Part shown: positions 1,615-5,479 of the stretch, one piece after another | How positions within the stretch are numbered: the stretch's first letter is position 1 | How the letters are laid out: every line of letters begins with the position of its first letter | Assembly (NCBI GenBank): GCA_021802775.1 | Contig: JAJZRJ010000009.1 | Coordinates: forward strand, 1 to 64,000 | Direction of reading: 5' to 3' | Source: Deltaproteobacteria bacterium | Lineage (GTDB): Bacteria; Desulfobacterota; Desulfobulbia; Desulfobulbales; Desulfurivibrionaceae | Length of the DNA: 64,000 bases | Notes under the pieces: model-generated | Seen by the model: only the letters and a program-made list of their open reading frames with translations | Database searches by the model: none | What the model was told of the DNA's origin: nothing | Made by a program: the position numbers and the translations under genes

Positions 1615-2190
1615 ATGAAGGTGGTGGCATTTTCCGGCAGCGCCCGTAAGGGCGGCAATACCGCACAACTCTTGAATCTGGCCCTGGCGGAGCTGGCGGC
1701 GGCCGGGATTGAAACCGAGCTGGTCGAACTCGCCGGCCAGCCGGTCCACGGCTGTATCGCCTGCTATCAGTGTTTCAAGGAAAAGAACCGGCGCTGTGCC
1801 GTGGAGAAGGACATCATCAACGACTGCCTTGCCAGGATGGACGCCGCGGACGGCATTCTGCTCGGTTCCCCCACCTATTTCGCCGATGTCTCGGCCGGCA
1901 TGAAGGCGTTGATCGAGCGCTGCGGCATGGTCTCCCGCGCCAACGGCGATATGTTCAAGCGCAAGGTCGGGGCCGGGGTGGTGGCGGTGCGGCGGGCCGG
2001 CGCCTACCACGTCTTCAGTTCCCTCAACGCCTTTTTCCTCATCGGCCAGATGATCGTGGTGGGCTCTTCCTACTGGAACATCGGCATCGGCCGGGAGCCC
2101 GGCGAGGCAATGGGCGACGAGGAGGGAGTGAAGACCATGAAGGACTTGGGCCGGAACATGGCCTGGCTGCTGGAGAAGGTGCGCGGGTAA
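1615..2190 (+). CDS. Flavodoxin-fold NAD(P)H-dependent FMN reductase family protein
   Basis: A 191-residue flavodoxin-like fold protein of the NADPH-dependent FMN reductase / iron-sulfur flavoprotein superfamily. Seen: N-terminal strand and FMN-phosphate loop (FSGSARKGGNT, residues 5-15), a CIACYQC segment near residue 46 that could be redox active, and GSPTYFADVSAGMKALIERCG in the position of the isoalloxazine-contacting loop. AAGGAGG sits about 7 bases before the ATG. It probably moves electrons between NAD(P)H, FMN and an unknown acceptor; no partner is encoded next to it. Its last 33 codons recur in degenerate form at 2908-3006, after the toxin gene, so this gene was once partly duplicated. 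Confidence 0.88.
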   Translation: MKVVAFSGSARKGGNTAQLLNLALAELAAAGIETELVELAGQPVHGCIACYQCFKEKNRRCAVEKDIINDCLARMDAADGILLGSPTYFADVSAGMKALIERCGMVSRANGDMFKRKVGAGVVAVRRAGAYHVFSSLNAFFLIGQMIVVGSSYWNIGIGREPGEAMGDEEGVKTMKDLGRNMAWLLEKVRG

Positions 2191-2211
2191 GCAGCGGCAA
2201 ATCCGTTTTGC

Positions 2212-2240
2212 TTGCGAGGGGATTATGACCATGTTACTAT
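2212..2240 (+). promoter_or_regulatory. Putative sigma70 promoter of the Phd/PIN module
   Basis: TTGCGA (2212-2217) and TACTAT (2235-2240) are separated by exactly 17 bases. Each matches four of six consensus positions. The -10 box lies in the spacer and right arm of the palindrome 2222-2249, as expected for an autoregulated toxin-antitoxin promoter. Inference from sequence only. Confidence 0.5.
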
Positions 2241-2249
2241 GGTCATAAT
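2222..2249. promoter_or_regulatory. Perfect 11-bp palindrome, probable antitoxin operator
   Basis: ATTATGACCAT (2222-2232) and ATGGTCATAAT (2239-2249) form a perfect inverted repeat with a 6-base spacer. It ends 17 bases before the antitoxin ATG and overlaps the predicted -10 box. Phd/YefM antitoxins repress their own operon by binding such palindromes, so this is the likely binding site; binding itself is inferred. Confidence 0.65.
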
Positions 2250-2266
2250 TGGCAAGGAGGTGCCGT

Positions 2267-2500
2267 ATGCCGCAAATCGTCTCGAAATCCCAATTCAAAC
2301 CGCATTCGCTGGAGTATTTCCGCAAAATCGAGCAGACCGGTGAGGAGTTGATCATCACCGACCATGGCCGTCCGGTTCTTAAAGTGGTCCCCTTTGTGGA
2401 AGATCCGGAGGAATGCTTCCGGGGGCTGCGCAACACCGTTTTGAAATATGATGCCCCGCTGGAGCCGGTGGGGGCGGAAGAGTGGGAGGCGCTCAAGTGA
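2267..2500 (+). CDS. Phd/YefM-family antitoxin
   Basis: A 77-residue antitoxin that should neutralise the PIN toxin encoded next and repress the operon. The ATG at 2267 is chosen over the upstream TTG at 2249 because AAGGAGG (2254-2260) is correctly spaced and the upstream codons lie in the operator. The N-terminal half has the Phd pattern: SKSQFKPHSLEYFRKIE followed by LIITDHGRPVLKVVPF, typical of the DNA-binding beta-alpha fold. The acidic C-terminal part (EPVGAEEWEAL) would wrap the toxin. The stop codon overlaps the toxin start (GTGA), implying translational coupling. The family is clear although the protein is short. Confidence 0.85.
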   Translation: MPQIVSKSQFKPHSLEYFRKIEQTGEELIITDHGRPVLKVVPFVEDPEECFRGLRNTVLKYDAPLEPVGAEEWEALK

Positions 2501-2892
2501 TCGTGCTGGATACGCATGTCCTGCTCTGGTGGGTGAATGGCTCCACCGCCCTGAGCAAACCGGCGAAAAAGGCGATAGACGCCGCGGTCCGCTCAAAGTC
2601 GGTGCAGGTCTCCTGCATCAGTTCCTGGGAGATCGCCTTGCTGGTGGAACGGGGCCGCCTGCGGCTGGCCCTCGATGTGCGGGACTGGCTCCACCGTTGC
2701 GAGACCTTGCCGTTTCTCACCTTTGTGCCGGTGAGCAATGCCATTGCCGTCGAATCCGTCAGGCTGCCGGACTTCCCCCACGCCGATCCGGCCGACCGGA
2801 TCATCGCGGCCACCGCCTTGTCCCTCGGCGCGGCCCTGGTGACCAAGGACGACAAGCTGCGTGGTTATCCCCATCTGAAAACGGTTTGGTGA
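2497..2892 (+). CDS. PIN-domain ribonuclease toxin (VapC family)
   Basis: A 131-residue PIN-domain toxin, presumed to be a magnesium-dependent endoribonuclease. The GTG at 2497 overlaps the antitoxin stop; an in-frame GTG at 2482 lies inside the antitoxin gene and is less likely. The four acidic PIN positions are visible: Asp5 in VLDTHVLLWW, Glu45 in SSWEIALL, Asp100 in DPADRIIAATAL, and Asp118/119 in VTKDDKL, so the toxin looks intact. The DTHxLLWW signature is that of the subgroup paired with Phd-type rather than AbrB-type antitoxins. Sequence homologous to the 3' end of the upstream reductase gene begins about 15 bases after its stop. Confidence 0.9.
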   Translation: MIVLDTHVLLWWVNGSTALSKPAKKAIDAAVRSKSVQVSCISSWEIALLVERGRLRLALDVRDWLHRCETLPFLTFVPVSNAIAVESVRLPDFPHADPADRIIAATALSLGAALVTKDDKLRGYPHLKTVW

Positions 2893-2907
2893 GTATGAGG
2901 GCCGCCA

Positions 2908-3006
2908 GGACGGAAACCGGGCGAGGTGGCAAACGACGAGGAAGGAACGAAGACCATGCGGGACCTGGGCTGGAACATGGCCTGGCTGCGCAAGAAGGTG
3001 CGCTGA
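2908..3006 (+). pseudogene. Degenerate 3' fragment of the flavodoxin-like gene
   Basis: Translation of this stretch, in the same frame as the toxin but after its stop, gives a 32-residue peptide matching the last 33 residues of the reductase at 2089-2190. About 23 of 32 positions are identical, including DEEG, KTM, DLG and NMAWL, and it ends in a stop at the equivalent place. There is no start codon or body of the gene: an in-frame TGA lies at 2896-2898 and the toxin gene precedes it. It is therefore a relic of a second reductase copy, with the toxin-antitoxin module sitting where its body would have been. Confidence 0.8.
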
Positions 3007-3312
3007 GGCAGCGTGCAACCGGGAACCACAAAAGAAGGTAGCGCGTTACGGGCCGGGTTTTGCGTGATCCGCGAGGGGGGCAGGCAGTATTTCCTTACCG
3101 GACAGCCTGTGGTAGAAGAAAGGGGTGCCTGCGACGGTAGCGACGGCAGGCAACAGATCAGCAAGAAGCCGGACCGCGGAAAAATGCCCGCCAGCCATCC
3201 GGGGATTTTTGAAAACAGAGTTTTTCTACAGACTTGTTTGGCTCAAAAAAATGTTAACACAAGTGCAACTATATATTAGTTGCAAAGTCCACTTCCACTA
3301 TGGTAGGATTTA
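3007..3312. other. Gene-free stretch before hicA
   Basis: About 300 bases with no convincing gene; the short open frames here lack a ribosome binding site and resemble nothing known. Composition shifts from GC-rich to AT-rich around 3200. The only structure noted is the inverted repeat at 3264-3284, upstream of hicA. The hicA promoter should lie here, but no well-spaced -35/-10 pair stands out. Confidence 0.6.
3264..3284. promoter_or_regulatory. Inverted repeat upstream of hicA, possible operator
   Basis: TGCAACT (3264-3270) and AGTTGCA (3278-3284) form a perfect 7-bp inverted repeat around a 7-base AT-only spacer containing TATATT, which could be a -10 element. It lies 28 bases before the hicA start. 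HicB antitoxins with a ribbon-helix-helix C-terminus bind palindromes of this kind. Functional role is inferred. Confidence 0.45.
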
Positions 3313-3567
3313 ATGTCTAAAAAAGAAAAACTCTTGGCCAGGCTGTGTGCCAGCCCATCACCCAAAGATTTCCCTTGGCATTCTCTTGTCACGCTCATGG
3401 GTTACTACGGGTTTGAAAGCACATGCGACGGTGGATCGCACTATATGTTTGAGCATTCGAGTGGTTTTCGTTTTGGCATGTCAAAAACTCACCCGTCTGG
3501 GGTTTTGAAATCTTATCAGGTACGCGATGCAAAGAACGCACTTAAACATATAGGGGTAATATTATGA
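3313..3567 (+). CDS. hicA: HicA-family mRNA interferase toxin
   Basis: An 84-residue protein of the HicA toxin family, which cleaves mRNA independently of translation. The dsRBD-like fold signature is visible: KDFPWHSLVTLMGYYGF followed by DGGSHYMFEH, where His43 in GSHY is the catalytic residue of the family. The C-terminus (HPSGVLKSYQVRDAKNALKHIG) matches the usual final helix. Its stop overlaps the start of hicB as ATGA, so the two are translationally coupled. Base composition is clearly more AT-rich than the flanking core genes, suggesting horizontal acquisition. Slightly longer than the minimal ~60-residue HicA. Confidence 0.88.
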   Translation: MSKKEKLLARLCASPSPKDFPWHSLVTLMGYYGFESTCDGGSHYMFEHSSGFRFGMSKTHPSGVLKSYQVRDAKNALKHIGVIL

Positions 3568-4022
3568 ACAAGCTTACCTACAAAGGCTACACCGGCACTA
3601 TTGAGGCAAGCATTGAGGATAGTTGTTTGCATGGACAAATCCTCTTCATTGAAGACATCGTTACCTATGAGGGCGAGACTGTCGAGGAAATCAAAACATC
3701 CTTCAAGCAAGCCGTTGACCGTTATCTTGCATATTGTAAAGAAACTGGGAATCCTGCCAACAAGCCATATAGCGGCACTTTCAACGTAAGGGTTGGGCAA
3801 GAACTCCACAGAAAAGCCGCAGAAATCGCTTGTCATCAAGGTGTTACCTTGAATGACTTCGTTGCTCAATCTATCAAAAGTGCTATAGTGCAAAATAGTG
3901 TTATAAGGTTAGAACATACTCATCATCATAATATTACTATATCAGATAGGCAATCATCAACAACCTTTGTTGCTACTACTGACAAACCGCTTGCTTGGGA
4001 GAAAGTCAATGCAATCCAATGA
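3564..4022 (+). CDS. hicB: HicB-family antitoxin with DNA-binding C-terminus
   Basis: A 152-residue HicB-type antitoxin. Residues 1-70 show the partially degraded RNase H-like fold typical of HicB (YKGYTGTIEAS, then GQILFIEDIVTYEGETVEE and FKQAVDRYLAYCKETG). Residues 75-112 (FNVRVGQELHRKAAEIACHQG, then TLNDFVAQSIKSAI) fit a ribbon-helix-helix DNA-binding segment. About 35 further residues, including HTHHH, extend beyond the usual end. It should bind HicA and repress the operon. The final 14 bases overlap the third gene of the operon. AT-rich like hicA. Confidence 0.87.
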   Translation: MNKLTYKGYTGTIEASIEDSCLHGQILFIEDIVTYEGETVEEIKTSFKQAVDRYLAYCKETGNPANKPYSGTFNVRVGQELHRKAAEIACHQGVTLNDFVAQSIKSAIVQNSVIRLEHTHHHNITISDRQSSTTFVATTDKPLAWEKVNAIQ

Positions 4023-4305
4023 GAACAATCCAAGCATGACAGCTGAGTTTTCGCTTATCGAACTTACTGAGATACTCGTTAAGCATAAAAATATTCATGA
4101 AGGGCTTTACAACTTATCTTTAGAGTTTCAGTTCGCCATTGGAGCTGTAGGGCCTACTCCTGAGTTAATATGTCCAGGAGCAATGATAGGCGTTTCGCGC
4201 TTCGGGTTGTCAAAAACAGAAAAAGAAAAAACGAATATCCATACAGTTGACGCGGCCAAGGTTAATCCAGCCCCTAAAAAGAGGGCGAGAAAAAGTAAAG
4301 AATGA
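4009..4305 (+). CDS. Third protein of the hic operon, function unknown
   Basis: A 98-residue protein not assignable to a characterised family. It starts inside the 3' end of hicB (14-base overlap) and is preceded by GGGAGAAAG about 4 bases before the ATG, a plausible ribosome binding site, so expression with hicAB is likely. Seen: a polar N-terminus, an amphipathic segment (LIELTEILVKHKNIHEGLYN), a compact central block rich in glycine and proline (FAIGAVGPTPELICPGAMIG) and a lysine/arginine-rich tail (PAPKKRARKSKE) that could contact nucleic acid. No signal peptide or membrane segment. It could be an accessory regulator or adaptor of the HicAB pair; that is inference from position. Confidence 0.7.
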   Translation: MQSNENNPSMTAEFSLIELTEILVKHKNIHEGLYNLSLEFQFAIGAVGPTPELICPGAMIGVSRFGLSKTEKEKTNIHTVDAAKVNPAPKKRARKSKE

Positions 4306-4354
4306 ACTTGCGAGCCAGCCAAACAGCCGCTACACCTTGACTCAAGTGGTTTCG

Positions 4355-4385
4355 GGCTAACAGCCTGTAGCCTCTTTTGTTTTTT
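4355..4385 (+). terminator. Weak rho-independent terminator candidate after the hic operon
   Basis: GGCTA (4355-4359) can pair with TAGCC (4368-4372), 8-base loop, followed by a T-rich run TCTTTTGTTTTTT. The stem is short, so termination efficiency is doubtful. Confidence 0.4.
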
Positions 4386-4472
4386 GCTCAACGAAACACA
4401 AAAAAACCACCCAACAAAGCGCTCAACCTGACCGCGAGAACATCTGCGGCGCTGCGCGGCAAGCTCAAGGTC

Positions 4473-4514
4473 ATCATGGGGTCAAATCATGGGGTCAGTC
4501 AAATCATGGGGTCA
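4473..4514 (+). repeat. Three direct copies of ATCATGGGGTCA
   Basis: ATCATGGGGTCA occurs at 4473-4484, 4487-4498 and 4503-4514, separated by 2 and 4 bases. Similar GGGGTCA-containing tails occur around REP-associated tyrosine transposase and other small mobile elements in many proteobacteria. No transposase gene remains here, so the origin is inferred. Confidence 0.7.
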
Positions 4515-4711
4515 GGCTTCCAAGTTGACAAGTTGAACAAAAATTAGGGGGGGGTGTCGATTCAGAGAGTGCTTTCGGTTGACACTGCCGAGTAAATATT
4601 GTCCCTCTTGTTCACTCCCATCATCGTCCGTCAGTTGCTGAACAAACATGGAAGAGACCGCTGTTCGAACAGGTCTCCCGTTGCAATTCGCGGAATTTTC
4701 GTGCCGGTAGC

Positions 4712-5479
4712 CTATCCTGCCAGCGGCAGGCTGGCCAGGAAGTGGGGCCAGGAGTTGATTTCCCGCTGGAGCAGGTGATGGTCGTAGCGACGCAGCAGGG
4801 TGAGCGACTCGCGGACGGCGTCCGGCGAGAAATGCAGACGGTCAAGCTTGTTGCCTGCCATGTGCTGGGCAGCATGGAGAAGCCGCGCCGTTTCCAGGGA
4901 GACCGGCACTTGGCCATGTTCGGTTTCGCGGTTGCATGCCTTGCAGATGAGCCCGCTTCTGCTGGTGCTGAAATGGTAGGGCCGCTGGGCCGGGGTGAGA
5001 TGGCCGCAACGCAGGCAGCCGGAGAGATCGGGTTTGTAGCCGAGGAGGTCGAGCATCCGGATCTCGAAGAGGATCACGGTGGCAAAGGCTGGCTGTCCCT
5101 GTTCGAGATTGGTGAGAGCCCAGCGCAGCAGGGCGAAGAGATCGGGATCGGCATCGTGCTCTCTGGTCCATTGGAGCATCTGTTCACAGAGCAGGGTGGC
5201 GGCGGTGTAACGGTGGTAGTTGCTGCGCAGGGTGGGAAAGGCGCTGACCAGTTCGGCCTGGTCGATCCGCATCAGTGAGCTGGTGCGGCTTTCCTCGTAG
5301 GAGAGGTCGAGGAGCGAAAAGGGTTCCAGCTTGTTGACGAACCGCTTTTTGCTCCGCTTGGCGCCCTTGGCGATACCGGAGAGTTTGCCCAGGTTCTCGC
5401 TGTAACAGGTGACGATCTTATCGGCATCGCCGTGGTCCATGACCTGGAGGACCACGGCGAGCGTTTGCTGGAGAGACAT
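4712..5479 (-). CDS. recO: DNA repair protein RecO
   Basis: Recombination mediator that, with RecR and RecF, loads RecA onto SSB-coated single-stranded DNA and anneals strands in the RecFOR gap-repair pathway. 255 residues, near the usual length. Seen: the N-terminal OB-fold block (residues 1-80, including YSENLGKLSGIAKGAKRSKKRF), a helical middle part with LLCEQMLQW, and a four-cysteine zinc motif at C155, C158, C179 and C182. It begins immediately after the stop of the rodZ-like gene (no gap), so it is the last gene of the long minus-strand run. Identification is firm. Confidence 0.95.
   Translation of the reverse strand: MSLQQTLAVVLQVMDHGDADKIVTCYSENLGKLSGIAKGAKRSKKRFVNKLEPFSLLDLSYEESRTSSLMRIDQAELVSAFPTLRSNYHRYTAATLLCEQMLQWTREHDADPDLFALLRWALTNLEQGQPAFATVILFEIRMLDLLGYKPDLSGCLRCGHLTPAQRPYHFSTSRSGLICKACNRETEHGQVPVSLETARLLHAAQHMAGNKLDRLHFSPDAVRESLTLLRRYDHHLLQREINSWPHFLASLPLAG

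Follow-up and report, generated by a model that had tools for sequence, protein, structure and literature searches.

Organization of the hicA-hicB-C operon

The window, by which we mean the whole 64,000-nucleotide stretch of DNA analyzed here, contains near its beginning three forward-strand genes that form a single operon. The first, hicA (3313–3567), codes for an 84-residue toxin (phrog_8887 toxin, 3.9e-16), and the second, hicB (3564–4022), for a 152-residue antitoxin with a ribbon-helix-helix domain and a C-terminal extension (PF05534, 2.7e-18; phrog_9151 HicB-like antitoxin, 3e-40). The third gene, here called C (4009–4305), codes for a 98-residue protein of an unnamed family that is probably a partner of the HicB tail. 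The hicA and hicB genes are joined by an ATGA overlap and hicB and C overlap by 14 bases, with a GGGAG Shine-Dalgarno sequence for C lying within hicB on the forward strand (3997–4001); comparable sites are present in the relatives. Both junctions, the 98-codon length of C and its own ribosome binding site had been given correctly in the initial annotation, and hicB/C overlaps of 11–14 bases are found again in most cassettes of the window's HicB subtype.

A palindrome, TGCAACTA-N5-TAGTTGCA (3264–3284), lies 5' of hicA and is predicted to be the HicB operator; it is kept at similar spacing 5' of hicA in most of the compared cassettes, and motifs like it also precede some two-gene hicAB loci. 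A consensus scan places a terminator-like hairpin followed by a T-rich tract 3' of the operon on the forward strand (4354–4373), and scanning of the operon region for known structured RNAs returned none.

HicA toxins have a double-stranded RNA-binding-like fold (PF07927), and the window's HicA reaches an E-value of only 0.007 against this profile, which is below the cut-off; a relative of the same group (L034) is over it (6.6e-9). HicB has the partial RNase H fold and the DNA-binding domain of its family (PF05534, phrog_9151 and model), the AlphaFold2 model having a beta-beta-beta-beta-alpha core plus helices. Matches of HicA and HicB to PDB sequences were set aside as not meaningful.

The third gene codes for an unnamed protein family

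Homologues of C with 54–85% identity occupy the same place in related cassettes. Where it does not overlap hicB, C has a pN/pS of 0.08–0.24 in close pairs, like that of hicA and hicB, and dN/dS is approximately 0.11 for window pairs with unsaturated dS. C is thus a genuine gene under purifying selection, and the homologues and the selection together rule out an orphan or spurious reading frame.

No family match to C was found in Pfam, NCBIfam, PHROG, PADLOC or the PDB sequences, where the matches obtained (E-values 0.06–1.6) are at chance level; the view that the protein matches no known family thus held up in these searches. Family members are 82–114 residues long and share Leu23, H-x-G at 30–32, G-x-x-G-P at 45–49, where the hairpin turns, and, close to the end, V-D/N-A-A-x-V-N-P. 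The K/R-rich C-terminal stretch that the initial annotation had pointed out is indeed present in the window's protein; it is variable, however, and since a number of homologues, such as L116 and L031, lack it, it is not essential to the family. The predicted model has one helix and a long beta hairpin. Of the five models just one is confident, and the fold must be regarded as tentative; a Foldseek search with it against PDB and viral models gave no match with an E-value of 0.001 or better, a negative result that is weak evidence.

C lies directly behind antitoxins with C-terminal extensions

Homologues of C are present in nine of 97 related genomes, to which the window's own genome contributes a second copy, as well as at 23 loci in the GTDB contig collection and in viral contigs. 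The second copy belongs to a divergent hicA-hicB-C cassette on contig C22 (L010:730-1758). A profile search found homologues in eight of 297 genomes of the phylum, one of which (L042) is a weak match with no toxin-antitoxin genes beside it and was dropped. In the class to which L020 belongs, homologues occur in four of 274 genomes, a count that takes in the query genome itself and one C cut off by a contig end. No plasmid or isolate-phage homologues were found, a match on a Haladaptatus plasmid being weak (E-value 0.3). One locus attributed to Chloroflexota (L025) is probably mis-binned, since it is on a short contig and lies inside a Pseudomonadota clade in the HicB tree.

Leaving out two phage head modules, there are 38 distinct loci where C is complete and the DNA upstream of it can be read. 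At every one of the 38 an antitoxin gene immediately precedes C, with a gap of −29 to +1 in the 31 loci that were measured. This supports the proposal that the third gene belongs to the hic operon, and homologues lying mainly away from hicAB, a prospect that the initial annotation had raised, were not what we found. C is not, however, specific to this hicB subtype. The 36 HicB-type antitoxins in front of C represent several subtypes, whose HicA partners differ, and include a HicB_lk antitoxin (L115); the remaining two antitoxins, both long-tailed and of the XRE helix-turn-helix type, come from viral contigs L116 and L147. C is thus tied to antitoxins in general and not to one hicB, and the property common to these antitoxins is a C-terminal extension. 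In both viral cassettes (L116:2036-3225 and L147:1996-3300) the order is a first protein without assigned identity, the long-tailed XRE antitoxin and the C homologue.

The HicB tail and C occur together

The tail of the window's HicB comprises codons 112–152 (3897–4019, forward strand) and is confined to HicBs with a third gene behind them. We searched 297 genomes of the phylum with the HicB core, its tail removed, and counted the residues past the ribbon-helix-helix domain. Within the window's HicB subtype there are 31–61 such residues at the 26 loci with C and only 1–14 at the 59 loci without it, and the two ranges do not overlap; this stricter set excludes L106, a weak, distant homologue without C that has 25 residues. 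The window's own genome provides an internal control, since on contig C49 it carries a two-gene hicB relative (L074) that has neither tail nor C. On the HicB core tree the joint trait of tail plus C arises on two branches only, requiring two changes where shuffled labels need 22 on average. There are thus few independent events within this HicB subtype, and it is the other antitoxin families that give independent weight.

In the AlphaFold2 model the core of the window's HicB is ordered and its tail is predicted to be disordered, with pLDDT below 50 for residues 113–152. A short N-[IV]-T strand motif is kept in many tails, and nearly all contain a Trp. In the window's branch the codon for this Trp forms part of the Shine-Dalgarno sequence of C, but the residue is kept in L022, L025 and L026, where it lies well 5' of that sequence.

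Other genes, including SecB relatives, occupy the position of C

A search with a second HicB subtype yielded ten loci: one with C, three with long-tailed HicBs but no C, and six with short-tailed HicBs. C is absent from the six short-tailed loci, which have no convincing third gene behind hicB, whereas all three of the long-tailed HicBs that lack C have another gene in the third position. At L152 this is a SecB-family protein (PF02556, 1e-8, over the cut-off), and at L159 it is SecB-like, with a weak match, the nearest PDB sequence being Rv1957, the chaperone of a mycobacterial toxin-antitoxin-chaperone (TAC) system (E-value 0.38). At L153 the long-tailed hicB and the gene behind it (L153:1147-2472) are followed through to a 142-residue third protein that matches neither Pfam nor NCBIfam and is possibly another third-component family. 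Because SecB-like genes stand there behind long-tailed HicBs, C holds the position of the SecB chaperone of the TAC systems.

C itself is not SecB, and we rejected that identity: the sole PF02556 match in the window's genome is the SecB on contig C49, a profile-profile comparison of C with SecB using hhalign gave a probability of 0.2%, and Foldseek found no match for the tentative model of C.

Homologues of C in phage head modules

C homologues also lie in the head modules of two viral contigs (L161:3649-3966 and L162:10807-11109), with no toxin-antitoxin pair beside them. In both the order is portal, a sulfotransferase-like gene (assigned by eye), the C homologue, a protein of approximately 110 residues and scaffold, with the major head protein following the scaffold in L162. 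A profile built from the HicABC cassettes alone finds these two homologues with E-values of 1.6e-9 and 3.7e-9 (search space 100,000). Further viral scans and a collection of isolate phages (50,697 phage records) gave no more.

Comparison with known three-part systems

The closest parallel is with the TAC systems, such as the HicAB-SecB system Mmet-TAC of Methylomonas methanica (PMC5105189). Both have a type II toxin-antitoxin pair with a third gene directly downstream, and an antitoxin extension past the DNA-binding domain that is not present in two-gene relatives. TAC antitoxins, a HicB among them, depend on this extension, to which a SecB-like chaperone binds, and the dependence can be transferred by grafting it (PMC5105189; PMC6377645); in the operon described here the third protein is linked to the extension by co-occurrence. 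There are also differences. The TAC chaperones are SecB homologues of approximately 140–180 residues, whereas C is not SecB and is shorter, and dependence on the third protein, demonstrated for TAC, is here a prediction. TAC antitoxins end in LAA, a ClpXP recognition sequence (PMC11618068), which is absent here, the window's HicB ending in NAIQ and its relatives in NAIN, RH, VH and similar sequences. Because C is not homologous to SecB, we set the system outside the TAC group despite its TAC-like position and tail.

CmdTAC likewise has three genes and an antitoxin with a long unstructured C-terminal part, and its third protein is required for antitoxin stability, but the toxin is an ADP-ribosyltransferase and the chaperone a true SecB homologue (PMC11618068). 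Two-gene HicAB systems with a ribbon-helix-helix HicB (Class 4, PMC10865869) share the HicA and HicB families, the gene order and the autoregulatory DNA-binding domain, but have neither the third gene nor the HicB tail. Text searches of the open literature found no description of C, and the searchable text of a 2024 survey of HicA contexts (PMC10865869) mentions neither a third gene nor SecB.

A probable role for C and the alternatives

These associations suggest that C is a so far unnamed helper of the antitoxin, with a role comparable to that of SecB in the known three-part systems. We think it probable that the operon is a three-part toxin-antitoxin system in which C is a dedicated antitoxin partner that binds the HicB tail and stabilizes HicB in a chaperone-like manner. 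The tail is the likelier partner of C because the toxin types vary while the tail and C stay together, and the pairing recurs across unrelated antitoxins, with ribbon-helix-helix HicB, HicB_lk (L115) and XRE (L116 and L147) proteins all accompanied by C. HicA would act as an RNase toxin, which HicB would counteract while also repressing its own operon. C, a small protein dedicated to HicB, would recognize the C-terminal tail of the antitoxin, possibly by pairing its long beta hairpin with a short strand of the tail. Binding of C would keep HicB folded or protected from proteases so that HicA is neutralized, and if C were drawn away or lost, HicB would presumably fail and HicA be released. The logic would be that of the SecB-like TAC systems, achieved by a different and much smaller protein; since no relation to SecB was found, the chaperone action of C rests on analogy of position.

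The initial annotation left the choice between chaperone, regulator and second inhibitor open, and by association the evidence favors a chaperone-like role. We regard it as unlikely that C is a co-repressor or conditional regulator that would act together with operator-bound HicB to adjust operon transcription, without chaperoning. The conserved palindrome 5' of hicA and the K/R-rich end of the window's C would suit such a role, and the tail adjoins the DNA-binding domain and could recruit C there; but the basic end is variable and missing in several members (L116 and L031 among them), a comparable operator motif precedes some two-gene hicAB loci, and the third position is common to C and the SecB-like chaperones. 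Direct binding of the toxin by C as a second inhibitor seems very unlikely. C is small and co-translated, and HipBST is reportedly a three-part operon with two inhibitory proteins; C, however, follows different HicA subtypes as well as two unassigned upstream proteins paired with XRE antitoxins, and its constant neighbor is a tailed antitoxin.

The phage homologues raise the further prospect that C is kin to a phage head-assembly protein and that head proteins draw it off the tail during infection, freeing HicA. The head-module location of C homologues on two viral contigs, with portal genes on one side and scaffold genes on the other, fits this, and there is a precedent in CmdTAC, where the antitoxin loses its SecB-like chaperone to the T4 capsid protein (PMC11618068), which makes a connection between C and head assembly a lead worth testing. 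There are only two phage examples, however, on contigs without isolates and with no match in the 50,697 phage records, and the operon's third protein has no PADLOC match; we consider phage sensing highly unlikely, although it is compatible with C being a chaperone-like partner of HicB. A broader proposal, also quite unlikely, is that C represents an undescribed minimal antitoxin chaperone family, unrelated to SecB and shared by several toxin-antitoxin families and phage head modules, in which a helper of phage head assembly may have been taken over by toxin-antitoxin systems, such that head assembly during infection would draw C off the tail and free the toxin.

The chaperone-dependent toxin-antitoxin systems described so far have, to our knowledge, SecB homologues. 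If C is a partner of the HicB tail as we propose, a non-SecB protein of approximately 90 residues in the SecB position would mean that antitoxin addiction to a helper has evolved more than once, and C would be a very small partner with which to study how a disordered tail makes a protein helper-dependent. Its homologues in phage head modules also allow a connection of toxin release with head assembly to be tested directly.

Acquisition of the operon and flanking features

The hicA-hicB-C cassette is 42% GC compared to 61% for its flanks, and the 2,537 bp (2187–4723) of the window that contain the operon correspond to just 97 bp in a same-genus genome. Acquisition of the AT-rich operon, as had been proposed, or else its loss in the relative, is therefore supported.

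A second toxin-antitoxin pair lies just 5' of the operon, consisting of a Phd/YefM-type antitoxin (2249–2500; PF02604, 6.8e-8) and its partner, a PIN-domain toxin (2482–2892; PF01850, 2.3e-15), and both this pair and hicABC are inside the 2.5 kb absent from the same-genus genome. The 3' end of the upstream flavoprotein-like gene (1615–2190) is repeated on the 3' side of the Phd/PIN pair, with 2115–2200 and 2934–3018 sharing 83% identity over 87 bases, perhaps a trace of the insertion of this pair. Repeated 'tcaaatcatggggtca' units 3' of the operon (4476–4520) may be left over from a repetitive or transposon-associated element.
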